Assembly: GCA_903876625.1 (NCBI GenBank)
Contig: CAIRAO010000395.1
Span: 1 to 40,436, forward strand
DNA from: an uncultured Gallionellaceae bacterium
Lineage (GTDB): Bacteria > Pseudomonadota > Gammaproteobacteria > Burkholderiales > Gallionellaceae
Direction of reading: 5' to 3'
Length of the DNA stretch: 40,436 nt
Positions 3,120 through 22,878 of the stretch are shown one piece after another. Made by a program: the position numbers and the translations under genes. The notes under the pieces are model-generated. The model saw only the letters and a program-made list of their open reading frames with translations. It made no database searches and was not told where the DNA came from. Numbering within the stretch: the stretch's first letter is position 1; the number at the start of each line of letters is the position of its first letter.

Positions 3120-3788
3120 TTATTGCGCCGGAGCAAGTATTACCAAAACACGATAAGGCCCATGTGCGCCCATGGTGACAGTCATTTCAATATCGGCAGT
3201 GCGTGAGGGGCCGGAAATAAAATTGACCGCTCTTGGTGGCTGTTTGTATTCCTTGCGCATTAATTCCCAGGCGTCTTCCATGGTGGCAACGATCCGTTGC
3301 GGATCAAGTACGGCAATATGAGTTTCAGGTAGTAAACTGGTGGCTGCAGGCGTTTCGGTGCCTGATAGCATCATCAATGTTCCTGTTTCTGCAATGGCAC
3401 AAAATGCGCCCGTTATTCCCACACCATCCAGGCTGTTTGCTGGACGCGACTCGATATTTAATCCCGCAGCGCTCCATGGCAATTCGGCTAGTGTCGGCCA
3501 GCATATCCCTTGATTTGGCAGCTGTCGTTCGCTGAGGTATTGCGTTATTAGTGCGGGCACTCGCTGGATGTCTGAAGTTTCTAAAACGTCACTGGATAGC
3601 TTGATTGCGCGGTGCTTGAAATTTGCAATTAAGTCGTCTGGAATAGTAGGCTGCGGACCCCGAGGATGACTATGCAAGTAATGTTTTACAGTATCGGGGG
3701 AGTCACTAATTTCGTTCGATTCAGCCTTTGTTCGCAATTGGGCATTGCGAATTTTGTTTAAAATATTTTCGCGAGCATTCATGTTCAT
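3120..3788 (-). CDS. lutC: LutC, LUD-domain lactate utilization protein
   Basis: The 222-residue protein belongs to the LUD (YkgG/LutC) family. Its C-terminal half carries the typical ITGAFCAIAETGTLMMLSG stretch and ends ISGPSRTADIEMTVTMGAHGP, the conserved family tail. LutC works with LutA and LutB in a cytosolic iron-sulfur complex that oxidises L-lactate to pyruvate. Its start overlaps the lutB stop by 4 bases, showing translational coupling. It is the last gene of the minus-strand lut operon. Confidence 0.92.
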   Translation of the reverse strand: MNMNARENILNKIRNAQLRTKAESNEISDSPDTVKHYLHSHPRGPQPTIPDDLIANFKHRAIKLSSDVLETSDIQRVPALITQYLSERQLPNQGICWPTLAELPWSAAGLNIESRPANSLDGVGITGAFCAIAETGTLMMLSGTETPAATSLLPETHIAVLDPQRIVATMEDAWELMRKEYKQPPRAVNFISGPSRTADIEMTVTMGAHGPYRVLVILAPAQ

Positions 3789-5188
3789 TTCCCCTGCTGA
3801 TATAGTTCACGAAAGGTTTGGCCTGTTGGAGCGGGAAAGTCACGCCCATTCGTCCAGCCGCTTGCGCCAGGCAAACTATGCAGCAATCTATCTTTGCCGC
3901 CCATTATGCTCATTATTTTTACGCCGATTTTTGTAGCAAGCTTGTATATATTCGGGTGAAGCGCCAGCCATGTCCATGCCTTAAGCATAAATACTTCGCG
4001 TTGTGTTTTCATACCGCGTTGCATTTGTTTCTCACGTAAATTGCGCAGCAAATCAGGCAATGGAATTTTAACCGGACACACGGCACCACAAGCGCCACAC
4101 AAGGTTGAAGCATTGGGTAAGTCGGGAGCTGCTTCCAGTCCACCCAGCAGTGGCGTAAGTATCGAACCCATCGGACCCGGATAAACCCAGCCGTAAGCGT
4201 GACCGCCAATATTTTGATAAACGGGGCAATGATTCATGCAAGCGCCACAGCGAATGCAACGCAACATTTTCTGCATATCACTTCCAAGAATGCTGCTGCG
4301 CCCGTTATCCAGCAAAATGATATGAAAATGCTCCGGGCCATCATGAGCAGAGCTGTCTTTAGTTCCGGTCAGCAGAGATACATAGTTGGTAATCGATTGT
4401 CCTGTGGCAGAGCGGGGTAGCAAGCGCAGCAGTGTGGTTACATCTTCCAGCGTGGGTACCACTTTCTCTATGCCGGTAATGGCAACGTGCACGCGTGGGA
4501 GGGTGGTGACAAGTCTTCCGTTTCCTTCATTGGTGACGATCAGAACAGAGCCGGTTTCAGCAATCAGAAAATTGCCCCCGGAGATGCCCATGTCAGCATT
4601 GAGAAATATAGGGCGCAAAGTTTCGCGAGCTTCACGACACAACTCGGCGATATCTGTCTTGCGCGGTTTTTGATGTTTTTCCGCAAACAAATCCGCAATT
4701 TCTTCTTTGTTTTTGTGCACGACCGGCGCGACGATGTGCGATGGCGCTTCGTGCGCAAGTTGCAGGATATATTCACCCAAATCGGTTTCCATCACCTGCA
4801 CACCGGCTTTTTCCAACGCATCGTTTAGTCCGCTCTCTTCACTGACCATCGACTTGGATTTTGCTGCAGTACGCACACCGTGAAGTGCAGCGATTTCAGC
4901 GACGATGCGGTTGGCATCATCACCATTTTCAGCCCAGTGAATGACTGCGCCTCGTGCAGTCGCCTGTTGTTCGAATTGCAGCAGCCAATGTTCAAGATCA
5001 TTTAGTGCTCGATCACGGATGGCAGCAGCTGCCACGCGGGTTTCTTGAAAGTCATCGATCTCGCTGATCACTGCCGCCCGACCACCGACAAATCGACTCT
5101 GCAAACGCGACAAAGCATTTTGTAGTCGGACGTCAGCCAGTTTGACCGTAACCTGGCGTTTGAAATTAACAGAGTTGTTTTGCATCAC
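3785..5188 (-). CDS. lutB: LutB, iron-sulfur LUD-domain subunit
   Basis: At 467 residues it matches the usual LutB length. An N-terminal LUD domain contains ISGGNFLIAETGSVLIVTNEGN, cut here to its core GGNFLIAETGS. It is followed by two ferredoxin-like cysteine clusters: CIRCGACMNHCP with Cys at 311, 314, 317 and 321, and CGACGAVCP with Cys at 364, 367 and 371. The subunit carries [4Fe-4S] centres that pass electrons from L-lactate oxidation. It is coupled to lutA and lutC by 4-base overlaps. All metal ligands are present, so it should be functional. Confidence 0.93.
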   Translation of the reverse strand: MMQNNSVNFKRQVTVKLADVRLQNALSRLQSRFVGGRAAVISEIDDFQETRVAAAAIRDRALNDLEHWLLQFEQQATARGAVIHWAENGDDANRIVAEIAALHGVRTAAKSKSMVSEESGLNDALEKAGVQVMETDLGEYILQLAHEAPSHIVAPVVHKNKEEIADLFAEKHQKPRKTDIAELCREARETLRPIFLNADMGISGGNFLIAETGSVLIVTNEGNGRLVTTLPRVHVAITGIEKVVPTLEDVTTLLRLLPRSATGQSITNYVSLLTGTKDSSAHDGPEHFHIILLDNGRSSILGSDMQKMLRCIRCGACMNHCPVYQNIGGHAYGWVYPGPMGSILTPLLGGLEAAPDLPNASTLCGACGAVCPVKIPLPDLLRNLREKQMQRGMKTQREVFMLKAWTWLALHPNIYKLATKIGVKIMSIMGGKDRLLHSLPGASGWTNGRDFPAPTGQTFRELYQQGK

Positions 5189-5919
5189 TCTTCCTTATCA
5201 AGACCGGATAAAACTTCCGCCACATGCAACACCTTGGTTTTATGGTTGCCAGTTCTGCGTAGCCGGCCTTCGATATTCAACAGGCAACCGAGATCACCAC
5301 CCACAATCGCATCGGCATGAGTTTCCGTAATATGCTGACATTTGTTATCGGCCATGCGCGTAGACAATTCGCCATATTTTACTGAGAACGTGCCACCAAA
5401 ACCGCAACAGGTAGTTGACTCTACCATCTCATTGACGGTGACATCCGGCATCGTTGCCAATAATTGGCGTGGTTGTTTGTAGACATCAAGTTGACGCAAG
5501 CCAGAACAAGAATCGTGATAGGTCAGACTGCCTTTAAAATTGCCCGGTGCCTTTTCGAGTTTGGCAATCTTAACCAGAAAGTCGGTTAGTTCAAAAGTTC
5601 GCTGGCTCAATTTTGTGAATCTTGCAAATAACGAGGGATCATCTTGAAAAAGTTCCGGGTAATGCACTTTGATCATGCCAGCGCAAGAGCCTGAGGGTAC
5701 GACCACATATTCAAACGATTCAAACTCGGCAATAAATTTGAGAGCAAGGGCTTTAGCGGATTCCTTATCGCCCGAGTTAAATCCGGGTTGGCCGCAACAG
5801 GTTTGTTGTTTGGGAAAGACGACTTCGCAACCTGTCGACTCCAGCAACTTAATTGTAGCGAACCCGATGCGTGGGCGCATGGAGTCGACTAGGCAAGTGA
5901 CAAATAAACCGACGCGCAT
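5185..5919 (-). CDS. lutA: LutA, CCG-domain subunit of lactate oxidation complex
   Basis: The 244-residue protein has the two cysteine-rich CCG modules of the LutA/GlcF family, CCGQPGFN in the first half and CCGFGG in the second, which ligate an iron-sulfur centre. It is the first gene of lutABC. The ATG is at 5917-5919; 113 bases separate it from the iclR-type gene upstream on the same strand, so it may share that transcript or have its own promoter. Related proteins handle heterodisulfide or glycolate, so another 2-hydroxyacid cannot be excluded as substrate. Confidence 0.92.
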   Translation of the reverse strand: MRVGLFVTCLVDSMRPRIGFATIKLLESTGCEVVFPKQQTCCGQPGFNSGDKESAKALALKFIAEFESFEYVVVPSGSCAGMIKVHYPELFQDDPSLFARFTKLSQRTFELTDFLVKIAKLEKAPGNFKGSLTYHDSCSGLRQLDVYKQPRQLLATMPDVTVNEMVESTTCCGFGGTFSVKYGELSTRMADNKCQHITETHADAIVGGDLGCLLNIEGRLRRTGNHKTKVLHVAEVLSGLDKEE

Positions 5920-6032: not shown

Positions 6033-6791
6033 TCAGATTGATTGAAAACCAAGTTGACCTGAAAGTTGTTGTCCGGTTTTGATTACAAGCTCAATCCATT
6101 CGTCCTGGCGGCGCTCTATGGGAGCGGAGACAGATAAGCCTGCAACAACCTGTCCGCTACTGTCACGCACTAATGTGCCGATGCATCCTACACCAAGTTC
6201 AGCCTCTTCATTGTCCAAAGCGTAACCGCGGAGCGCGGAACTGACACAGTCTTGTACAAGGGAAGTGATTTTAGTGTGAGTGTTGATGGTGTAAGGAGTT
6301 AGTTTGTTGCGTTTTGCATAACTGCGGCAAGCCGCTTCGCCCTGATCGCCTAGTATCATTTTGCCCACTGCCGTGACATGTAAAGGGGCACGACTACCGA
6401 TCACCTGCTCAACCCGAATCATGCGTTTGGCTAATGAACGTTCAATGTAGACAACCTCGTCGCCTTCGCGCACGGTTAGGTTAACCGTCTCTCCAAGATG
6501 GTCCCGCAGTTTTTCCATCAATGGCAATGCAACTTGTCGAATGTCTAAAGAAGAACTCACCAAGCTGCCCAATTGCATCAGTTTGTGCCCCAATTTGTAA
6601 CTGCCACGCGCAGTGCGTTCCACGAAACCCTGCTCAGCAAGAGATGCGAGTATTCGAAACGCCGTAGAAGGGTGCAATCCCGTTTCGGCAGAAAGGGTTT
6701 TAAGGCTCGCCGAATCCTTGTGGGCAGCAATGACATCAAGTAACCGCGCGAGTCTTTCAATAACCTGAATGGAATTTGAGCTTGTTTGCAT
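6033..6791 (-). CDS. IclR-family transcriptional regulator
   Basis: The 252-residue protein has an N-terminal winged helix-turn-helix (about residues 5-65, with SLKTLSAETGLHPSTAFRIL as recognition region) and a C-terminal IclR effector domain with LHVTAVGKMIL and ALDNEEAELGVGCIGTLV. IclR proteins bind small organic acids and usually control neighbouring catabolic genes. It lies upstream of lutABC and diverges from the ThDP-enzyme gene, with 144 bases between, so it could control both units. Most lut operons are controlled by GntR-type proteins, which makes an IclR partner less usual. The effector is unknown. Confidence 0.9.
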   Translation of the reverse strand: MQTSSNSIQVIERLARLLDVIAAHKDSASLKTLSAETGLHPSTAFRILASLAEQGFVERTARGSYKLGHKLMQLGSLVSSSLDIRQVALPLMEKLRDHLGETVNLTVREGDEVVYIERSLAKRMIRVEQVIGSRAPLHVTAVGKMILGDQGEAACRSYAKRNKLTPYTINTHTKITSLVQDCVSSALRGYALDNEEAELGVGCIGTLVRDSSGQVVAGLSVSAPIERRQDEWIELVIKTGQQLSGQLGFQSI

Positions 6792-6935
6792 TTTTCGTAT
6801 TGTGAAAACGATTGTGTATTGCGCAATTATATAACAACCAGTATTCTGTGACGAGTGCGATTTGCTAAATCATTTTTTTGGCGACTTCGCGTTAAGTCGC
6901 AACAACTGGTGGATATATTTTAGGAGTAACTGGAA
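6792..6935. promoter_or_regulatory. Divergent control region between iclR-type gene and ThDP enzyme gene
   Basis: Two copies of ATTGTG 12 bases apart (6799-6804 and 6811-6816) are followed by the perfect 10-bp palindrome ATTGCGCAAT (6818-6827), close to the iclR-type start: a candidate autoregulatory operator. Nearer the plus-strand gene, GCGACTT (6881-6887) and AAGTCGC (6894-6900) form a perfect inverted repeat with a 6-nt spacer, either a second operator or a 5'-leader hairpin. AGGAG at 6922-6926 is the ribosome-binding site for the gene at 6936. Confidence 0.5.
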
Positions 6936-9143
6936 ATGAAAACTGACGTAATTACAGCTCCCGCTTTTTGTGAAGGCATTCAGCATTTCGGGCCGGTTTG
7001 GGAAGGTTTCTCCCAATATGCCAGTGCAGCCGTCATCAAAGAGGGCAAGGCTTCGATCGACGATTCTAGTGCGCCTGAGGCAGTCTATCAAACATTGCTC
7101 ATGGCTGACGCGTTGCGCTACCTGACATTGCAAACATGCGGCTCAAAAGGTTCCGGCCATCCGGGCGGATTTGCCAGCAGTGCCGAGGCCTATGCTTCAC
7201 TGGTGATGCTGGGCCACACCAATATTGTGACTGAGGTCGGGCATCATGCACCGGGTTTTTACAGCGCAATGTTCCTTGATACCTCATTGGAAGCGATGGG
7301 TATCAAGACGGTGACTGACTTGATGGCACGTTTCCGCGAGAAGCATGGTTTGCTTGGGCACTTGTCCGGCGCGATTCCGGGTTTATTGGCACCCGCAGGT
7401 CCGTTGGGTCAGGGGCAGCATTTCGCCATGGCAGGTGCGTTGCTGCATCCTGGCAAATTATTCCCAGTCACGATCGGTGACGGTGGCATGGGTGAGCCCT
7501 ATGTATTGAATTCGATGATGCACTTTAATACCGCTTATCCAAAAGTAACCAATTTCTTGCCAACATTAGTTTGGAATGGTTACAGCCAGGAGCATCATTC
7601 CATGGTATCGCGCTTTACTGATGAGGAAATGATCGCTTACTGGAAGGGTCATGGCTTTAAGGAAGTGGTCTTGGTCGATGCAAAAGCGTTTGATGACACC
7701 AATCAAACCAGTGCCTATGCGGATAGCTCCTATTTCTCACAAAAACAGCGTTTGGCTTTCGCCGCCGCCGTTTTGGCTGGCGTAGACAAAGCCGCAAAGT
7801 CAGCCTTGCGTGGCACTTTGACTGCCTTCATCATCAAGCAGATGAAAGGCACGGGAGTGCATACAGTCGGAGCCAAATCGCACAATTTGTATCCTGCAGA
7901 CAGTTTAGACAAGCCGCACATGATTGAAGGTTTAAAACGTCGTGCATTGAATCCGGAAGCCTGGAAGATCGTGCGTGAGAATTTTGTACGCGCGGGAGGA
8001 GGTCCAGCGGTTAAGACTTCAGTCACTGAACATGTGATGGAATTGGCGCCGCTCGGAAATATGCCTTTGCACGATTTTCCAAAAGGTGAAAAAGCGGTGC
8101 CTGCAACCGCAATGGGTGCACTGGTGGCGTATGTGGGAACCAAAGACAAGCGGTTCGTCGTGGCTAATGCTGACGGAAATGAAGCTTCTGCAATGAAGAA
8201 CATCAACGATGCATTAAAAATTCGCCATCCGACCGTTGACCCGTTATATAACCAGGAACCGGAAGGACAAGTATACGAGCCACTGAACGAAGATGCTTGT
8301 GCGGGCTTGGCCTCGGCCTTGGCACTGTTTGGTTCGCGCGCATTGTGGTTGTCTTACGAAAGCTTTGCTATTAACGGCTGGCCGATCGTGCAGACCGTAG
8401 CGCAAGCGATGGCCGAATTGCGCCGCAAGACACCCTCCATTGTCACCATGTTTACTGCGGGAGCATTGGAGCAGGGTCGAAACGGATGGACGCATCAACG
8501 CCCGGAGATCGAGAATTTCTTTGCCGCACAAATGCGTAATGGCAATACCTATGCATTATTCCCATGTGATGCAAATGCGATTCAGGCGAGCTACGAATAT
8601 GCCACCAACAGCTCAAACAAATGTATGGTGATTATTGCCTCCAAGAGTCCGTTGCCGGTGTACATGAGTGTAGGGGAAGCCAAAATTGCGGTTGAAGAAG
8701 GTGCTGCGGTAATCTACGAAAGCAAAACTGGCAGTAGGGGTACGGTGGTGTTTGCGGTGACTGGAGATATGATCTTCCTGCCGGTGTTTGATGCCAAAGA
8801 CAAACTCGAAGCAGAAGGTTACAAAGTGCGTATTGTTGCGGTAATCAATCCGCGTCGTCTATACCGACCATCCGACGTGTCATGGAATACAGTATCTCAG
8901 CCGGATAATAAATTTATGGGCGATGCCAACTTCAACAAGTTATTTGATGCAGATATTTTGCTGGCGGTGAGCGGAGGACCGAGTGCGGTGCTGGAGCCGA
9001 TCTTGTTACGTACGCGTGCAGCAAGGCGTGACACTTTTGCGTGGAAGCGCGGCGAAACGACAGCGAGTCCGGCGGAGATCATGGAGTTCAATGGACTCAC
9101 CGGTGTTGCAATGGCTCAACGTGTCAGAACGTTGGTGGTTTAA
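6936..9143 (+). CDS. Divergent ThDP-dependent transketolase/phosphoketolase-like enzyme
   Basis: The 735-residue protein mixes features of transketolase and phosphoketolase. Transketolase-like are SGHPGG (H75), GHHAPGFYSAM and AGPLGQG. The ThDP diphosphate/metal site is GDG (181-183) with N214 in WNGY. The second half aligns with phosphoketolase without gaps around E452 (in NED), the position of the catalytic Glu that activates ThDP, and around NGWTHQ, where H520 matches phosphoketolase H553. Phosphoketolase H548, near the substrate phosphate, is R515 here. It is shorter than usual phosphoketolases (about 800). It should transfer or cleave two-carbon ketol units; the substrate is unknown. It leads a long gene run and precedes a tetronate kinase by 31 bases, which points to acid-sugar chemistry. 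Confidence 0.8.
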   Translation: MKTDVITAPAFCEGIQHFGPVWEGFSQYASAAVIKEGKASIDDSSAPEAVYQTLLMADALRYLTLQTCGSKGSGHPGGFASSAEAYASLVMLGHTNIVTEVGHHAPGFYSAMFLDTSLEAMGIKTVTDLMARFREKHGLLGHLSGAIPGLLAPAGPLGQGQHFAMAGALLHPGKLFPVTIGDGGMGEPYVLNSMMHFNTAYPKVTNFLPTLVWNGYSQEHHSMVSRFTDEEMIAYWKGHGFKEVVLVDAKAFDDTNQTSAYADSSYFSQKQRLAFAAAVLAGVDKAAKSALRGTLTAFIIKQMKGTGVHTVGAKSHNLYPADSLDKPHMIEGLKRRALNPEAWKIVRENFVRAGGGPAVKTSVTEHVMELAPLGNMPLHDFPKGEKAVPATAMGALVAYVGTKDKRFVVANADGNEASAMKNINDALKIRHPTVDPLYNQEPEGQVYEPLNEDACAGLASALALFGSRALWLSYESFAINGWPIVQTVAQAMAELRRKTPSIVTMFTAGALEQGRNGWTHQRPEIENFFAAQMRNGNTYALFPCDANAIQASYEYATNSSNKCMVIIASKSPLPVYMSVGEAKIAVEEGAAVIYESKTGSRGTVVFAVTGDMIFLPVFDAKDKLEAEGYKVRIVAVINPRRLYRPSDVSWNTVSQPDNKFMGDANFNKLFDADILLAVSGGPSAVLEPILLRTRAARRDTFAWKRGETTASPAEIMEFNGLTGVAMAQRVRTLVV

Positions 9144-9174
9144 ATTAATTGCTAACGAAGTCTGGCTATTGACT

Positions 9175-10500
9175 ATGGCAGAAACAAAAATCATCGTGTT
9201 GGATGACGACCCAACCGGTTCGCAAACAGTGCATAGCTGCTTGCTGCTGACACGCTGGGATAAAGAGAATTTGCGCGAGGCGATCCAGGATGCCTCGCCG
9301 CTATTCTTTGTGTTGACCAATACGCGGGGAATGGGAGCAAAGTCAGCGGCCGATATTACCCGCGAAGTATGTAAAAACCTGAAGTTGGCATTGACCGAAC
9401 TAAAAAATATCGGACGCGATATTAATCCGATCATGGTGAGTCGCTCTGACTCAACCTTGCGCGGGCATTATCCTGTAGAAACCGATGTGATCGCTGAGGA
9501 GCTTGGGCCATTCGATGCTCATTTTTTAGTGCCTGCATTTTTTGAGGGTGGCCGGCTTACGCGTGACAGTATTCATTATTTGATTGTTAACGGCAAGGAA
9601 ACTCCGGTGCATGAAACAGAATTTGCTCGAGACTCTGTGTTCGGATATCGCCACAGCTATTTGCCGGAGTACGTGGAGGAAAAAACAGGCGGCCGGATTC
9701 ATAAGTCACAGGTTGAGCGGTTTTTGCTGGAAGACTTGCGCGGCAATAGTTTGCGACGATTGATGAATTTGCATGGCAATATATGTGCGGTTGTCGATGC
9801 CGAGAAGCAAGGCGACCTCAATCATTTCGCAGAGCAATTGCGTGATGCAGCCAGCCAGGGCAAACGTTTTTTATTTCGCAGTGCGGCCAGTTTGCTTACT
9901 GCGTTGGCAAGATTGCCAGCCCAGCCAGTTGCGGCTCAGGATATGGCACGATATGTTCGCAATGGGAAACCGGGTGCGGTGATTGTCGGTTCACACGTCA
10001 AGAAAACGACTGCACAACTTGAGCTCTTGCTAAAAATGCCCGGGATTATTGCAATTGAAGTTAACGTTGATAAATTGCCGGAGCATAGCCAGCAAATGCT
10101 GGAAGATATTTTGAATCAATGCGCACAGGCGCACGCGGCGGGGAATACGCCGGTTGTTTATACCAGTCGACAGGAAAAAGTCTTTTCCGATCAGGCCTCT
10201 CGCCTAGCCTTTGGTGATAGTGTCTCAGCATTTATGATGGATGTCGTACGAAATCTTCCAGCAAGTTTAGGATTCCTTATCAGTAAAGGTGGGATTACTT
10301 CGAACGATGTTTTAAGTTCGGGTTTGGCGTTGCGTACCTCGCGTGTGGTGGGGCAAATATTGCCGGGCTGTTCAGTTGTTTGCTGTCCTGCTGACCACAC
10401 GCGCTACCCGAATTTGCCTGTTGTGATCTTCCCGGGAAACGTCGGTGATGAAAAAGCATTAGCAAGGGCATATGGCATCTTGTCTGGTTTTGATGTTTAA
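9175..10500 (+). CDS. Four-carbon acid sugar kinase (DUF1537; OtnK/DtnK-like)
   Basis: I start at ATG 9175 (MAETKIIVLDDDPTG), since longer readings overlap the previous gene. The 441-residue length fits the family. Marks of DUF1537 are DDDPTGSQTVH at the N terminus, SRSDSTLRGHYPVE in the substrate domain, and ISKGGITSNDVL and FPGNVGD in the C-terminal nucleotide domain. Characterised members phosphorylate D- or L-threonate, erythronate, or 3-oxotetronate at O4, feeding DHAP production. Here no aldolase-type OtnC decarboxylase or PdxA-like dehydrogenase lies alongside; the partner is a ThDP enzyme instead, which is unusual. No clear ribosome-binding site precedes the start, so translation may be coupled. 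Confidence 0.88.
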   Translation: MAETKIIVLDDDPTGSQTVHSCLLLTRWDKENLREAIQDASPLFFVLTNTRGMGAKSAADITREVCKNLKLALTELKNIGRDINPIMVSRSDSTLRGHYPVETDVIAEELGPFDAHFLVPAFFEGGRLTRDSIHYLIVNGKETPVHETEFARDSVFGYRHSYLPEYVEEKTGGRIHKSQVERFLLEDLRGNSLRRLMNLHGNICAVVDAEKQGDLNHFAEQLRDAASQGKRFLFRSAASLLTALARLPAQPVAAQDMARYVRNGKPGAVIVGSHVKKTTAQLELLLKMPGIIAIEVNVDKLPEHSQQMLEDILNQCAQAHAAGNTPVVYTSRQEKVFSDQASRLAFGDSVSAFMMDVVRNLPASLGFLISKGGITSNDVLSSGLALRTSRVVGQILPGCSVVCCPADHTRYPNLPVVIFPGNVGDEKALARAYGILSGFDV

Positions 10501-10635
10501 TTTGCGCCTTCTGAATCAAAGAAGTTTACAAAGCTATTTAAAATGGGAAATTCTTGGTGATTTCGTTTAGTATAAATTTAGCCTGTCAGTAAAACTTAGG
10601 ACATAAATCAATAGCCGAATTTGGGGAGAAATAGT

Positions 10636-12099
10636 ATGAATGAAGCTACAACAGCAGCAATTGAAACAAAAGCCATACCTGAAAAAGCTTCTTTGCTTGC
10701 TTCCGCCTGGCCTCAACTTATCATCGGGATCATATGTATGGTGATGATTGCCAACATGCAGTACGGATGGACCTTTTTTGTTCCAGAAATTCAAAATAAA
10801 TTTGGTTGGGACAGGGCCTCCATCCAGATTGCATTTACCCTCTTTATTTTATTTGAAACGTGGCTGGTGCCTATTGAAGGCTGGTTTGTGGATAATTACG
10901 GACCCCAAGTCGTCGTGTTCGTCGGCGGCCTTGCATGTGCTCTCGGCTGGGTGCTCAACTCCTATGCAACATCTTTAGGGCAGTTTTATACAGCGCAAAT
11001 CATAACAGGGATTGGGGCTGGGGCCGTTTACGGAACTTGTATCGGGAATTCACTCAAATGGTTTCCAAACAGACGAGGTCTTGCGGCAGGTTTAACAGCT
11101 GCCGGATTTGGAGCGGGTTCAGCGTTAACCGTCATTCCGATTCAATCAATCATTAAAAATGACGGTTTTCAGAATGCGTTCCTCTACTTTGGTTTGGGTC
11201 AAGGAATTGTGATCTGTCTGTTTGCCTACTTGATGGCAGTACCTACTGAACAGTTAAGATCGTTAGTCAAAATTCATAAGTCTGTTAATCGGATCAGAGA
11301 ATTTTCAACTCGTGACATTATTGGTCCGAGTCGTCCGTGGATCATTGCGAGTCTATTTACTGTGCTCGGCGGATTGACGATGTGGTCATTGGGTTTGCAA
11401 TTCTATATCCCGCTAGCCTTGGCAATTGTGATTATGATCGTTGGCGGTGGAATTGTATGGGCAAAAGGTGAGCCTGTATTTATCTTGATGTATTTTATGT
11501 TCGTCATCGTGGGGGCGGGTGGTCTGATCGTAACTGCCAACTTAGCGCCGATTTCGCAAGATTTGAAAGTCGGCACCATACCAGTGACGATTGCCTGGTT
11601 GACCTTACCGGCGCTGACTTTTGCGGCCACGATTGATCGTACTCTGAACGGTATAACAAGACCATTTTTCGGCTGGGTCTCGGATCATATTGGCCGCGAA
11701 AACACAATGTTCATCGCGTTCACGCTTGAGGGCATCGGTATATTCATGCTTTATAAATTCGGTGCCGACCCTTTCTGGTTTGTCATACTCAGCGGCATGG
11801 TGTTTTTTGCGTGGGGTGAAATATACAGCCTCTTTCCGGCAACCTGTACTGATACGTTCGGATCAAAATATGCAACCAGTAATTCAGGGCTTTTGTATAC
11901 GGCAAAAGGTACAGCTGCATTACTCGTTCCCTATGCAAGCTCCTTGCAGAAAAGTACAGGAAGTTGGGATGCAGTGTTTCTCATGGCTGCGGCGGTCAAT
12001 ATTCTGGCGGCATTTCTTGCCGTTGGTGTACTTAAGCATTGGCGCCACAAAGTGATTGCCAATCAAGAGCGCAGGGCAATCACCCGGACTCCTGAATAA
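10636..12099 (+). CDS. OxlT-type MFS transporter (oxalate/formate antiporter family)
   Basis: ATG 10636 is chosen because GGGGAGA lies just before it; an upstream TTG would place that site inside the gene. The 487-residue product has 12 or more membrane segments and resembles Oxalobacter OxlT: QYGWTFFVPEIQNKFGW in helix 1, WFPNRRGLAAGLTAAGFG after helix 4, RPFFGWVSDHIGR and YTAKGTAAL. The two charged residues that bind oxalate in OxlT (R272, K355) have counterparts R342 and K424. An inserted hydrophobic stretch sits in the central region near residues 235-280. It probably imports or exchanges a small dicarboxylate or related acid. A TATAAA box lies at 10571-10576, so it may also have its own promoter. 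Confidence 0.85.
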   Translation: MNEATTAAIETKAIPEKASLLASAWPQLIIGIICMVMIANMQYGWTFFVPEIQNKFGWDRASIQIAFTLFILFETWLVPIEGWFVDNYGPQVVVFVGGLACALGWVLNSYATSLGQFYTAQIITGIGAGAVYGTCIGNSLKWFPNRRGLAAGLTAAGFGAGSALTVIPIQSIIKNDGFQNAFLYFGLGQGIVICLFAYLMAVPTEQLRSLVKIHKSVNRIREFSTRDIIGPSRPWIIASLFTVLGGLTMWSLGLQFYIPLALAIVIMIVGGGIVWAKGEPVFILMYFMFVIVGAGGLIVTANLAPISQDLKVGTIPVTIAWLTLPALTFAATIDRTLNGITRPFFGWVSDHIGRENTMFIAFTLEGIGIFMLYKFGADPFWFVILSGMVFFAWGEIYSLFPATCTDTFGSKYATSNSGLLYTAKGTAALLVPYASSLQKSTGSWDAVFLMAAAVNILAAFLAVGVLKHWRHKVIANQERRAITRTPE

Positions 12100-12108
12100 A
12101 GGCAAATC

Positions 12109-12891
12109 ATGGCGCAATGGATTTCATTTATTCATAATGGAAAATCTGGTTTCGGTCAGATAGAAGGTGATCGTGTTGCAGTATATGAAGGTTCTCTGTT
12201 TGCCGAGGCGCGTCGGACAAACAGGGTTCTTGCTATCGCTGATGTAATTATGGATCTACCCTGCCGGCCGGGAAAATTGATCGCACTATGGAACAACTAC
12301 CACGCGCAAGCTTCCAAGCAAAATCTTTCGATACCCGCTGAACCTTTATATTTCATCAAATCGCCAAGCAGTTACTGTGCTCACGAAAATATTGTTCCTT
12401 CGCCGACTTCGTATAACGGCCGGGTTGTTTATGAAGGAGAATTGGGCATTGTCATTGGGCGACTCTGCAAGAACTTGAATGAAGACGAGGCCAGACAAGC
12501 AATATTTGGTTACACCTGCATCAACGACATTACCGCTTTGGACCTGATCTCAAAAGATACTTCATTTGCACAATGGACACGGGCAAAAAGCTTCGACGGT
12601 TTTGGGGTCATTGGCCCAGCCATCACGACCGGACTTGATTGGAGCACATTGAGTGTCAGAACTTTGATCAATGGAAGGGAGCGCCAGAATTATCCCTGCA
12701 TTGACATGATCTTTTCTCCTGAAAAGATTGTTCACGCAATTTCACAGGACATGACGCTGGAGCCGGGTGATGTCATTGCGTGCGGAACTTCGCTTGGCGT
12801 CTTGCCAATGAAACCCGGCACGATCGTGGAAATTCAAATAGAGGGTATCGGTACTTTGCGAAACCAGTATGGAGCAGGCGCATCTGAATAA
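12109..12891 (+). CDS. Fumarylacetoacetate hydrolase (FAH)-family enzyme
   Basis: The 260-residue protein has the FAH C-terminal fold: metal ligands in YEGELGIVIG (two Glu) and in NDITALDL (Asp), the TRAKSFDGFGVIGP loop, and a closing LEPGDVIACGTSLGV. The family contains hydrolases, isomerases and decarboxylases acting on 1,3-dicarbonyl acids, including the oxaloacetate decarboxylase FAHD1. It follows the OxlT-like gene by 9 bases and precedes the PanE-like gene, so it belongs to the same pathway. A role as beta-keto-acid decarboxylase, perhaps on 3-oxotetronate phosphate, is possible but unproven. Confidence 0.88.
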   Translation: MAQWISFIHNGKSGFGQIEGDRVAVYEGSLFAEARRTNRVLAIADVIMDLPCRPGKLIALWNNYHAQASKQNLSIPAEPLYFIKSPSSYCAHENIVPSPTSYNGRVVYEGELGIVIGRLCKNLNEDEARQAIFGYTCINDITALDLISKDTSFAQWTRAKSFDGFGVIGPAITTGLDWSTLSVRTLINGRERQNYPCIDMIFSPEKIVHAISQDMTLEPGDVIACGTSLGVLPMKPGTIVEIQIEGIGTLRNQYGAGASE

Positions 12892-12921
12892 CTTACCAAT
12901 TATTTAATATAAGGCAATTCG

Positions 12922-13935
12922 ATGAAGATTTGTATAGTAGGCGCCGGTGCAATAGGCGGCATGCTGGGTGTTAAATTTGCACTAACCGGACATGATGTCA
13001 CACTTATTTTGCGCGGAGCCAATTTGGCAGCCGTTAAGCAAAATGGTTTGAAACTGATTGAAGAAGATGGCAAAGAGCTGCTTGCGCATCCGATCAAGGC
13101 GACATCTGTAATGACCGAAGCTGGAGTACAAGATGTTGTGATCTTGACATTAAAAGCACATCAAGTAGTTCCAATTGCAGCCGAGCTTCCCTCGCTAATG
13201 CATTCCGAAACGCGAGTGATCACCATGCAGAACGGAATTCCCTGGTGGTACTTCCATAACCTGCCCGGAGAGCTGGGTCAGCGCTATCAGGGAACATCGG
13301 TTAAGTCTGTCGACCCTGAGGGCATTACTGCAAAGTACATTAATGTTGATCGCGTTATCGGCAGCGTGGTTTATCCGGCGAGTGAAGTAATTAGTCCAGG
13401 GGTAATCAAAGTAATTGAAGGCAACCGTTTTTCTCTTGGTGAACTTGACGGGAGTGATACGCCAAGTATTCGCGCCATCAGTGATGCATTCAAAGCAGCG
13501 GGATTCAAGTCGCCAATTTCCAATGACATCCGCTCCGAAATTTGGCTGAAGCTGTGGGGCAATTTGAGTTTCAACCCGATCAGCGCATTGACTCACGCCA
13601 CGCTGGAAGATATTTGTGTTTTTCCCGGCACCCGTGAACTGGCTGCAAATATGATGCGCGAGGCTCAGATCATTGGTGAGAAGTTGGGCGTCAATTTTAA
13701 AGTGAGTCTGGAGAAACGCATCAATGGAGCCCAGGCAGTGGGACAACACAAAACATCCATGCTGCAGGATGTCGAGTTGGGGCGACCACTTGAACTTCAG
13801 GCTTTGGTGGGTTCAGTGATTGAACTCGGGCAAATTACCGAGACTCCCACTCCCAATATCAACGCGGTATACGCGCTGACGTCATTGTTGGCGAATAAAT
13901 TGCAACAGCACAAAGCAACATTAAAAATCTCTTGA
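12922..13935 (+). CDS. PanE/ApbA-family reductase, candidate oxalyl-CoA reductase
   Basis: The 337-residue protein opens with the NADP-binding loop IVGAGAIGGMLG and has the ketopantoate-reductase family layout, including KAHQV, MQNGIPWW and the C-terminal helical domain with WLKLWGNLSFNPISALT carrying the catalytic-type Lys. A housekeeping ketopantoate reductase is unlikely in this setting. In Methylobacterium extorquens a PanE homologue (PanE2) reduces oxalyl-CoA to glyoxylate, and here the gene is followed directly by an oxalate-CoA-ligase-like gene. That pairing is the basis of the proposed role; the sequence alone cannot fix the substrate. Confidence 0.85.
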   Translation: MKICIVGAGAIGGMLGVKFALTGHDVTLILRGANLAAVKQNGLKLIEEDGKELLAHPIKATSVMTEAGVQDVVILTLKAHQVVPIAAELPSLMHSETRVITMQNGIPWWYFHNLPGELGQRYQGTSVKSVDPEGITAKYINVDRVIGSVVYPASEVISPGVIKVIEGNRFSLGELDGSDTPSIRAISDAFKAAGFKSPISNDIRSEIWLKLWGNLSFNPISALTHATLEDICVFPGTRELAANMMREAQIIGEKLGVNFKVSLEKRINGAQAVGQHKTSMLQDVELGRPLELQALVGSVIELGQITETPTPNINAVYALTSLLANKLQQHKATLKIS

Positions 13936-13989
13936 AATTGCACTTCCTGATAATGACTCTCTAATTCTTACTTATCTTTCTCGCCAATC

Positions 13990-15528
13990 ATGAAAAAATT
14001 TACTACTCTTTCTGAAATGATCGCGATTCATGCGAATGCAACACCATCAGCAACAGTGATTACAGCGCCATCGGCAATTCCATTGACATATTTTGGACTG
14101 AATCAATTAATACAAAATACTGTCGCTTCACTTAACAAGTTTGGAATTGGAAGGGGGGACCGCGTCGGAATCGTGATGTCCAATTGCCCAGAGATGGCAA
14201 CAGCATTTATAGCGGTCGCAAGCGGCAGTACTGCAGCGCCATTGAACATGGCCTATCGAGCGGATGAATTGGAATTTTATCTCGACGATTTAAAAGCAAA
14301 GGCACTGATTGTTGCAAAAGGAAGTGAAACACCAGCAAGGGCAGTAGCAGCAAAACTGGGGATCGCTATTCTGGAACTTTCACCTACTCCGGAAAATGGA
14401 GCCGGTAGCTTTACGCTCGCAAGCATATCTCCTGCAAACAGTTCGACTAAGAATGGAGGTCTGGCACAGTCTGCTGATGTTGCTTTGATCCTGCATACAT
14501 CAGGTACCACTTCCCGACCCAAGATCGTCCCTCTCAGCCATACCAATGTTTGCGCATCAGCGAGAAATATAAGTTCAACGCTTAATCTCCAACAGAATGA
14601 TCGAGAGTTGCACGTGATGCCGCTGTTCCATATTCATGGTTTGATTGCAGGAGTTCTTGCTCCAATGGCTGTTGGTAGTCAAATCTTTTGCACACCGGGT
14701 TTTAATGCATTGAAGTTTTATGCCTGGATGAAAGAGTGCAAACCGACCTGGTACACCGCCGTGCCAACCATGCATCAAACCATTTTGTCTCGCGCCGCAG
14801 GAAACATGGATGTCATTCAAAGCAATCCGTTACGGTTTATTCGTTCCTCCTCGTCATCGATGCCGACCCAGGTCATCGGTGAGCTTGAAAAAGTATTCAA
14901 TGCACCATTGATCGAATCCTATGGTATGACTGAAGCTGCGCACCAAATGGCAAGTAATCCGTTGCCACCTGCCAAACGTATTCCCGGCTCGGTAGGAATT
15001 GCTGCCGGACCCGAAGTTGGCATCATGGACACTCAGGGTAATCTGCTGCCAAGCGGAGTCATTGGCGAGGTCGTGATACGCGGTGAGAATGTCACATTGG
15101 GATATGAGAATAACGCTAAGGCCAATGCAGAGGCATTTGTGCACGGGTGGTTTCGCACTGGCGATCAAGGATCTCTATCGAGTGATGGCTATCTAACCTT
15201 AACCGGTCGTTTGAAGGAAATCATCAATCGGGGTGGTGAAAAAATATCTCCTCTGGAAGTAGATGAGGTTCTGATGCTTCACCCGGCAGTGATGCAGGTT
15301 GTCACCTTTGCCATGCCGCACGATAAATTGGGTGAAGATGTGGCGGCGGCTGTGGTGTTGAGGGAAGGCTTCAGTTTGAATGAGAATGAATTGCGCGAAT
15401 TTGCAGGAACCAAATTGGCAGCTTTTAAAGTGCCAAGAAAAATCCTGTTCATGGCTGAAATACCAAAGGGAGCCACGGGTAAATTACAGCGCATCGGATT
15501 GGCTTCCAAATTGGGACTGGGAGAATGA
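13990..15528 (+). CDS. AMP-forming acyl-CoA ligase, oxalate-CoA ligase (AAE3) type
   Basis: The 512-residue adenylate-forming enzyme has HTSGTTSRPKIVPLSH (phosphate loop), ESYGMTEAAHQM, WFRTGDQG, the hinge GRLKEIINRGGEKISP and the C-terminal Lys in KGATGKLQR. Throughout it resembles plant and yeast oxalate-CoA ligase (AAE3/Pcs60), with PLFHIHGL, TWYTAVPTMHQ and SSSSSMP for the usual SCSASL region. It would convert oxalate, ATP and CoA to oxalyl-CoA in the cytosol. The neighbouring PanE-like reductase and OxlT-like transporter agree. Other small acids remain possible. No strong ribosome-binding site is seen before the ATG. Confidence 0.85.
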   Translation: MKKFTTLSEMIAIHANATPSATVITAPSAIPLTYFGLNQLIQNTVASLNKFGIGRGDRVGIVMSNCPEMATAFIAVASGSTAAPLNMAYRADELEFYLDDLKAKALIVAKGSETPARAVAAKLGIAILELSPTPENGAGSFTLASISPANSSTKNGGLAQSADVALILHTSGTTSRPKIVPLSHTNVCASARNISSTLNLQQNDRELHVMPLFHIHGLIAGVLAPMAVGSQIFCTPGFNALKFYAWMKECKPTWYTAVPTMHQTILSRAAGNMDVIQSNPLRFIRSSSSSMPTQVIGELEKVFNAPLIESYGMTEAAHQMASNPLPPAKRIPGSVGIAAGPEVGIMDTQGNLLPSGVIGEVVIRGENVTLGYENNAKANAEAFVHGWFRTGDQGSLSSDGYLTLTGRLKEIINRGGEKISPLEVDEVLMLHPAVMQVVTFAMPHDKLGEDVAAAVVLREGFSLNENELREFAGTKLAAFKVPRKILFMAEIPKGATGKLQRIGLASKLGLGE

Positions 15529-21999: not shown

Positions 22000-22878
22000 A
22001 TGACGATCAATATTGGATTTATCGGACCCGGTATCATGGGCAGGCCCATGGCGCTAAACCTGATGAAGGGAGGCTACAAATTATGGGCTTACGCCCGCCG
22101 CCCGGAAACTTTACAACCCTTAACAGTTGCGGGTGCAACAGGTTGTGCCTCGGCAAGTGAAGTAGCTAAACATGCCGATGTGATTTTTACAATCGTTTCG
22201 GACACGCCGGATGTTGAAGCGGTAATCTTTGGTGAGCAAGGCATAGCCAAACATGCGCGTCCCGGATCAGTGATTGTAGACATGAGTACAATTTCGCCTA
22301 CGGCCACTAAAGCATTTTCAGAACGCCTGGAAAAACTCGGACTTGAAATGTTGGACGCACCCGTTTCCGGTGGAGAAACTGGCGCGATCAATGCGACCCT
22401 TTCTATTATGGTGGGTGGAAAAACCAAAGTTTTCGAACGCGTAAAACCGCTATTCGAATGCATGGGAAAAAACATCGTTCACATCGGAGAAAACGGCGCA
22501 GGTCAGGTTGCCAAAGCCTGTAACCAGATTGTGGTGGCGGTGACCATTGAAGCTGTGGCAGAAGCGCTGACATTTGCGCGCAAAAATGGTGCTGATCCCG
22601 CTAAAGTACGCGATGCGTTGATGGGGGGATTTGCAGGAAGTAAAATTATGGAAGTGCATGGCAAGCGAATGCTGGATAACGATTTCAAACCCGGCTTCAA
22701 AGTCGGCTTGCACCAGAAAGACATGCGCATCGTGATGGAAACTGCACACCAGTTGGGTTTGGCGTTGCCCGCTGCGGCGATGGTCACACAGCATTTGAAC
22801 GCGTTGATGGGTACCGGTGATGCAAATCTTGATTCGGCGGCAATTGTTAAAGTTATTGCACGCATGTCAGGGATCTAA
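22000..22878 (+). CDS. glxR: Tartronate semialdehyde reductase (2-hydroxy-3-oxopropionate reductase)
   Basis: ATG 22000 follows AAGGAG; a longer reading would overlap the MFS gene. The 292-residue beta-hydroxyacid dehydrogenase has GFIGPGIMGRPMALNL (NAD(P) binding), VDMSTISP, DAPVSGGETGA (substrate loop), catalytic K172 in GQVAKACNQ, and GFAGSKIMEVHG plus LHQKDMRI, which are typical of GarR/GlxR rather than 3-hydroxyisobutyrate dehydrogenase. It reduces tartronate semialdehyde to D-glycerate, the step after glyoxylate carboligase in glyoxylate use. No glyoxylate carboligase lies in this window. Confidence 0.9.
   Translation: MTINIGFIGPGIMGRPMALNLMKGGYKLWAYARRPETLQPLTVAGATGCASASEVAKHADVIFTIVSDTPDVEAVIFGEQGIAKHARPGSVIVDMSTISPTATKAFSERLEKLGLEMLDAPVSGGETGAINATLSIMVGGKTKVFERVKPLFECMGKNIVHIGENGAGQVAKACNQIVVAVTIEAVAEALTFARKNGADPAKVRDALMGGFAGSKIMEVHGKRMLDNDFKPGFKVGLHQKDMRIVMETAHQLGLALPAAAMVTQHLNALMGTGDANLDSAAIVKVIARMSGI

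Follow-up and report, generated by a model that had tools for sequence, protein, structure and literature searches.

A conserved ThDP enzyme and DUF1537 kinase gene pair suggests a possible phosphoglycolate-salvage route in Calvin-cycle bacteria

A 40,436-nucleotide stretch of DNA from an uncultured Gallionellaceae bacterium of iron-oxidiser type (GenBank assembly GCA_903876625.1, contig CAIRAO010000395.1, positions 1 to 40,436, the whole of which we call the window) carries two adjacent genes, one for an enzyme dependent on thiamine diphosphate (ThDP) and one for a DUF1537 kinase. Comparison across genomes reveals that this pair is a conserved, discrete module, linked in operons to glycolate oxidase genes and present, within our class-level sample, only in genomes with ribulose-1,5-bisphosphate carboxylase/oxygenase (RuBisCO). 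Judging from gene families and their context, we hold it about evenly balanced whether the pair is a glyoxylate-consuming module that serves mainly phosphoglycolate salvage in aerobic Calvin-cycle bacteria by a specific route. Tentatively, and with slightly less than even confidence, we propose that it represents an unrecognised natural salvage pathway of Calvin-cycle iron, sulfur and related proteobacteria (24 family labels in the class-level sample), in which a ThDP-dependent ketol transfer from a Calvin-cycle sugar would be followed by phosphorylation of 3-oxotetronate and return of dihydroxyacetone phosphate (DHAP), at no cost in nitrogen or reductant. The two genes are the following.

6936..9143, plus strand: ThDP-dependent enzyme of the phosphoketolase/transketolase superfamily, 735 amino acids (Pfam, fold, active-site residues); proposed ketol transferase to glyoxylate
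9175..10500, plus strand: DUF1537 (SBD_N/NBD_C) kinase family protein, 441 amino acids (Pfam, fold, conserved start); proposed 3-oxotetronate 4-kinase

An original prediction, made from the letters of the window, had described a transketolase/phosphoketolase-like gene next to a DUF1537 kinase gene, and both open reading frames (ORFs) were found here with Pfam families that agree. As listed, the kinase ORF begins at 8983 and overlaps the ThDP gene; conserved starts in relatives make 9175 the likely start. The ThDP gene was found in 35 genomes of the class-level sample (370 genomes, evenly sampled), which show 60-100% identity and bear 24 family labels, and it is rare in the phylum-level sample (3 of 397). 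One genome of the same family, G667, is without it. A plasmid collection gave 95 records, each below 60% identity, with 21 to 28% among the 40 matches listed. We also followed named loci, which are the best 80 of 159 relatives; their counts lean to close relatives, many of these loci are short, and named and sampled loci may have genomes in common. Close relatives among these 80, with 70-94% identity over the best segment, belong to Gallionella, Sideroxydans, Sulfuriferula, Mariprofundus, Acidithiobacillus, Thiogranum, Sedimenticola, Thiococcus and Thiobacillaceae, lineages that are mostly Calvin-cycle autotrophs; many further relatives are named just Gammaproteobacteria or Proteobacteria, and one Campylobacterota. 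The kinase gene lies directly downstream of the ThDP gene in all 69 testable named loci and in 29 of 31 sampled loci. Moreover, it is present in every one of the 35 sampled carriers, within about 1.4 kb in 34 of them and some 750 kb away in G318. Because the kinase follows the ThDP gene nearly always, the pairing is not due to chance.

Kinase matches at E<=1e-10 occur in 41 of the 370 genomes, including all 35 carriers; those in G214, G374 and G160 lie near contig starts or are a short fragment. Three genomes of one genus (G103, G210 and G295) have kinase relatives at 40-42% identity and no ThDP gene; they fall outside the 198 genomes with a PF00016 match, and the kinase possibly has a related use there. 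Two loci are damaged, by decay or by assembly error: the ThDP gene of G304 (L086) has one in-frame stop, and the kinase of L038 is split into two ORFs.

In the class-level sample, a RuBisCO match at E<=1e-95 is found in all 35 carriers, compared with 181 of the 370 genomes overall (Fisher p 2e-12, uncorrected for shared ancestry). As controls we took RuBisCO-positive genomes, at the same threshold, that lack the ThDP gene; every third of 146 gave 49, of which the first 45 were used, and 17 genomes with a weaker PF00016 match were omitted. A GlcD-type glycolate oxidase gene (E<=1e-140, a threshold chosen after the gap between match groups was visible) occurs in 34 of the 35 carriers and in 29 of the 45 controls (p 0.0003). 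The carrier scored as a miss, G224, has weaker or fragmentary GlcD matches only. The GlcD-type gene lies within 8 kb downstream of the pair and on the same strand in 20 of the 35 carriers, and in many loci genes matching GlcD, GlcE and GlcF stand behind the pair in the same direction. When one neighbour of each kind was scanned against NCBIfam, GlcE and GlcF passed their cut-offs and GlcD fell just under. Of the named loci, 33 extend 7 kb or more in both directions, and 26 of these have at least two Glc or Lut subunits within 8 kb (17 loci with Glc, 11 with Lut and 2 with both). The original prediction had asked whether the pair mostly occurs apart from glyoxylate-forming genes in other genomes; by the GlcD counts (34 and 20 of the 35), it does not.

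These data bear on a rival explanation: by the same chemistry, the module would feed on glycolate, lactate or oxalate taken up from outside, and its tie to the Calvin cycle would show no more than where the pentose phosphate comes from. We consider this unlikely, if by no means negligible. Transporters stand behind the pair in the window, and in the 80 named loci we found neighbours of the tripartite ATP-independent periplasmic (TRAP) type in 9, of the branched-chain amino acid ATP-binding cassette type in 14 and of the OxlT-like type in 2; one or more LutABC genes occur in 18 of the 80. However, every one of the 35 carriers in the class sample has RuBisCO, and in a number of loci GlcDEF follows the pair immediately, with none of the transporter types that we searched for. 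Oxalate assimilation, which the original prediction had brought in, was dropped as the principal setting, since the two OxlT-like neighbours are few for 80 named loci of which 61 reach at least 2.5 kb downstream. It is more likely that the glyoxylate derives from the glycolate of Rubisco oxygenation than from oxalate. The other part of that prediction, ketol transfer to glyoxylate followed by a tetronate-type kinase, fared better, gaining independent support from the glycolate oxidase linkage, a regulator close to glyoxylate-responsive ones and the restriction of carriers to RuBisCO genomes in the class-level sample. The glyoxylate interpretation is well supported by genomic context, the original prediction as a whole only in part; every reaction, as well as the ketol donor, the decarboxylation step and the regulator ligand, is what we infer.

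In the salvage route that we propose, Rubisco oxygenation would yield 2-phosphoglycolate and then glycolate, which would be converted to glyoxylate by the glycolate oxidase GlcDEF, or possibly by LutABC in Gallionella-type loci. With a ketose phosphate as donor, the ThDP enzyme would transfer a C2 ketol unit onto the aldehyde of glyoxylate, giving 3-oxotetronate and a shortened aldose phosphate. Glyoxylate is the suggested acceptor because it is what glycolate oxidase makes and because the acceptor of a ThDP ketol transferase has to be an aldehyde. The product would be 3-oxotetronate because a C2 ketol plus glyoxylate makes a four-carbon oxo-acid, of the type phosphorylated by the DUF1537 kinases of threonate pathways; according to an excerpt of PMC12540250, 3-oxotetronate is a substrate of the kinase in the four-step threonate pathway. 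The DUF1537 kinase would then phosphorylate C4, and the resulting beta-keto acid phosphate would lose CO2 to give DHAP, spontaneously or through a further enzyme. The net reaction would be xylulose 5-phosphate (Xu5P) + glyoxylate + ATP -> glyceraldehyde 3-phosphate + DHAP + CO2 + ADP, with no use of nitrogen or reductant. Its CO2 cost would be one per glyoxylate, more than that of the glycerate pathway (one per two).

Since OtnC is below its cut-off in all 35 carriers and an aldolase occurs in just 4 of the 80 named loci, the last step may be spontaneous or performed by another enzyme. In those four loci (L031, L037, L048 and L049), a class II fructose-bisphosphate-aldolase-like gene lies directly behind the kinase. 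Three of these genes were scanned and are under every aldolase equivalog cut-off, the one of L048 being just over the subfamily model TIGR00167 (217.3 vs 215.6). This gene is a candidate 3-oxotetronate 4-phosphate decarboxylase; the Arthrobacter 2-OtnC decarboxylase, too, has a class II aldolase domain, as a passage of PMC12540250 indicates.

The ThDP enzyme belongs to the phosphoketolase superfamily, with Pfam scores of 48.1 bits for XFP (cut-off 22) and 37.8 for XFP_N (cut-off 23.7), and 23.1 for XFP_C, just under the cut-off of 23.4. Its predicted structure (mean predicted local distance difference test score, pLDDT, 77) is closest in the PDB to phosphoketolase 3ahi (Z 35.9, root-mean-square deviation 5.5 over 654 residues, 18% identity), followed by pyruvate dehydrogenase E1 (Z 29.0) and transketolase (Z 28.9). 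The ThDP catalytic residues are kept: His 75, 103, 142, 316 and 520 and Glu452 align with those of the phosphoketolase and transketolase of the same genome, the roles and reference numbering of the ThDP and phosphate-site residues being those that we assume. That fold is the argument for an ordinary phosphoketolase making acetyl phosphate, a reading that we nevertheless regard as highly improbable. Indeed, the enzyme reaches at best 107.8 bits on the curated phosphoketolase models, vs a cut-off of 777 for that model and 962-1518 for the others, and the window genome has a separate, ordinary phosphoketolase, which scores 1540 (cut-off 1143) and has behind it an acetate-kinase-like ORF cut short by the locus end. 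Neither is it a typical transketolase (41.4 vs the TIGR00232 cut-off of 682.25), and the genome has an ordinary one of these as well (1005 bits vs 682). With both ordinary enzymes in the same genome, the ThDP enzyme of the pair is therefore a third, separate enzyme. In a 20-row tree, built from 15 of the 30 rows in alignment A1 together with three phosphoketolases from plasmids and the phosphoketolase and transketolase of the window genome, its family forms a separate, fully supported and very long branch; branch lengths run from 3 to 10 changes per column, and the family is not placeable between phosphoketolase and transketolase.

The kinase is assigned by Pfam scores above the cut-offs (SBD_N 186.9, cut-off 25; NBD_C 131.2, cut-off 28.3) and a predicted structure of pLDDT 87. 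At E<=0.001, a Foldseek search gave eight chains, which belong to six entries; 4xfr, 4xgj, 4xg0, 5dmh and 1yzy have DUF1537 in their titles, and 3dqq is entitled putative tRNA synthase. Among the NCBIfam kinase equivalogs the sole match at E<=0.001 is D-threonate kinase NF047819, at 68.1 vs a cut-off of 450. The pair could also run in reverse, an acid sugar being phosphorylated or cleaved for catabolism, as the original prediction had itself remarked; we judge this quite improbable. DUF1537 kinases are known from acid-sugar catabolism (PMC12540250, in part), but the conserved partners of the pair are glycolate oxidase subunits. Furthermore, the predicted lack of an OtnC-type (Aldolase_II) or PdxA domain beside the pair was borne out by a Pfam scan of the 3.1-29.5 kb part of the window, in which none was found among 20 ORFs.

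A divergent IclR-family regulator gene stands ahead of the pair in 67 of 68 testable named loci and 28 of 29 sampled loci. Its nearest NCBIfam model is BhcR (165.9, under the cut-off of 350), followed by PcaR, KdgR, IclR and AllR. According to parts of PMC11323563, BhcR, IclR and AllR respond to glyoxylate, and a table there gives 160, 161, 212, 239 and 241 as the oxygen-binding residues of IclR. Each of the 61 rows with letters retains the equivalents of 212, 239 and 241; those of 160 and 161 are changed, to Ala (62/63) and Val (61/63). The regulator of the pair thus resembles the glyoxylate-responsive IclR, AllR and BhcR in family and in three of the five oxygen-contact positions; it differs from IclR by its Ala and Val at 160/161, and it does not reach the BhcR cut-off. 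A small gene that we label GlcG-like stands beside the regulator in 15 of the 80 named loci; in L012-L020 and other Gallionella-type loci it lies about 0.9-1.1 kb upstream of the pair, and the one such gene scanned scored 120 vs a cut-off of 246.

The other features of the window that surround the pair are listed here.

6033..6791, minus strand: IclR-family regulator, divergent from the pair (IclR_C 143.1 bits; best NCBIfam match BhcR)
6792..6935, no strand: intergenic region between regulator and pair, a likely control region, inferred from position only
5185..5919, minus strand: LutA/LldE-like subunit, named by position and CCG domains (CCG 121.3 bits); kept near the regulator with LutB and LutC
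3785..5188, minus strand: LutB/LldF iron-sulfur subunit (TIGR00273 481.7 vs cut-off 444.8)
3120..3788, minus strand: LutC-like LUD-domain protein (LUD_dom 108 bits)
10621..12099, plus strand: oxalate/formate-antiporter-type transporter of the major facilitator superfamily, a local neighbour and not a conserved part (TIGR04259 591.2 vs cut-off 335)

The window locus is of the Lut type. Its LutABC genes (3120-5919) occupy the neighbour position held by GlcDEF in other loci, and they possibly serve glycolate oxidation in Gallionella-type loci, with lactate as an alternative. Downstream genes had been thought able to make glyoxylate, which the matches do not bear out: they comprise transporters, dehydrogenases of reductase type, a GMC oxidoreductase and others, with no curated glyoxylate-forming enzyme among them, and the oxalate/formate-type antiporter is a transporter. 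Behind it, at 12109-15528, are FAH-family, PanE-like and acyl-CoA ligase genes. A threonate-dehydrogenase-superfamily gene at 22000-22878, 11.5 kb from the pair, matches tartronate semialdehyde reductase (TIGR01505, 379 vs 340.75) and is under the L-threonate dehydrogenase cut-off (198 vs 350). It is present though the window genome has no Gcl over the cut-off, and its substrate could be a different oxo-acid. Elsewhere, malate synthase G lies near the pair in 5 of the 80 named loci.

We then compared other glyoxylate-related enzymes of carriers and controls, in searches that covered Gcl, malate synthase and the PF13660 family of glycerate kinases. Malate synthase (11 of 35 carriers vs 7 of 45 controls, p 0.11) and the PF13660 glycerate kinase (22 of 35 vs 19 of 45, p 0.08) do not separate the two groups. 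Gcl passes its cut-off in none of the 35 carriers, in one of the 45 controls and in none of eight named carriers; being near-absent in both groups, it was rejected as a discriminating test and shows only that carriers lack Gcl. Neither Gcl nor malate synthase is found in 24 of the 35 carriers, 10 of which are also without the PF13660 glycerate kinase.

Several observations weigh against the salvage route. The glycerate kinase in 22 of the 35 carriers means that a C2-type route could operate there. Among the 29 GlcD-positive controls, 23 have neither Gcl nor malate synthase nor the pair, so other answers exist and the pair is one of several. The window genome need not depend on the pair, as its best GlcD match sits on another contig, C25, together with malate synthase and glycerate kinase. 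In six named loci whose flanks are long, neither Glc nor Lut genes occur close to the pair, and the curated TIGR00387 cut-off is passed by GlcD in only 6 of the 80 genomes compared (3 carriers and 3 controls). OtnC (NF043034), searched for in the 35 carriers only, is over its cut-off in none, with weaker matches at E<=1e-20 in 6. From the literature, parts of PMC7895386 report that glycolate oxidase, by Enzyme Commission number, is rare and depleted in Calvin-cycle genomes and that there is no Calvin-specific adaptation of photorespiration outside cyanobacteria.

The last such observation concerns the ketose-phosphate site of the ThDP enzyme, where three positions are altered (A417, A419 and R515) and K570 and N516 are kept, though stretches 414-417 and 508-524 of the model are predicted under pLDDT 50. 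Arg515 is invariant where phosphoketolase has His, and the site is unlike that of transketolase or phosphoketolase. Such a site could accept a different donor, and it favours a reading in which glyoxylate or a related 2-oxo acid is consumed and a different product is made, from an unphosphorylated donor (hydroxypyruvate or glycolaldehyde) or with another acid as kinase substrate. The distance of the kinase from the D-threonate kinase cut-off and the tartronate-semialdehyde-reductase gene of the window point the same way. However, the reductase-type cluster was found in 9 loci, window included, and known threonate-pathway DUF1537 kinases act on four-carbon oxo-acids, as stated in a section of PMC12540250. 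We rate the formation of a different product as rather improbable.

The biological significance of phosphoglycolate salvage by the pair would lie in the recycling of 2-phosphoglycolate in chemolithoautotrophs, which is described as open. In the portions available of Claassens et al. 2020 (PMC7486775), malate synthase is tabulated at 0% for the RuBisCO genomes of Acidithiobacillales (9), Halothiobacillales (6) and Nitrosococcales (14), and other routes are deferred to later studies. Similarly, an extract of a 2025 paper (PMC12175532) reports that, for three of the four known routes, no key gene is annotated in Thiomicrorhabdus genomes, the C2 cycle being assumed. These published gaps resemble the 24 carriers without Gcl and malate synthase. 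The pair suggests an unrecognised recycling of the toxic by-product of the Rubisco reaction with oxygen, and the operon offers two defined genes for which both substrate and product are predicted. If the proposal is true, it would add a natural photorespiratory bypass whose product enters the Calvin cycle directly, and which might be tried out for engineering carbon fixation. We found no description of the pair in the open-licence literature without preprints; a subscription or preprint report could exist.

Three known systems help to place the proposed salvage route. The bacterial L-threonate pathway (LtnD-OtnI-OtnK-OtnC, or its three-step 2-OtnK/2-OtnC variant), as outlined in parts of PMC12540250, likewise has a DUF1537 kinase acting on a four-carbon oxo-acid and ends in DHAP and CO2. 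In the pair, by contrast, the oxo-acid would come from glyoxylate via the ThDP enzyme and not from threonate oxidation, and OtnC is below its cut-off in all carriers. The ThDP enzyme shares its fold and catalytic His set with the Xu5P/fructose 6-phosphate phosphoketolase, from which it is set apart by scores far under the curated cut-offs, an altered phosphate site and other neighbours. The glycerate pathway (Gcl, tartronate semialdehyde reductase and glycerate kinase) also uses a ThDP enzyme on glyoxylate, releases CO2 and has a similar gene setting. Gcl, which passes its cut-off in no carrier, joins two glyoxylates, whereas the pair would add a sugar-derived ketol. A Sulfobacillus figure legend, the part of PMC5418355 that bears on this, names IclR, glcD, glcE and glcF with gcl, hyi and glxR; compared with that set, it looks as if the pair stood in place of the gcl-hyi-glxR branch.

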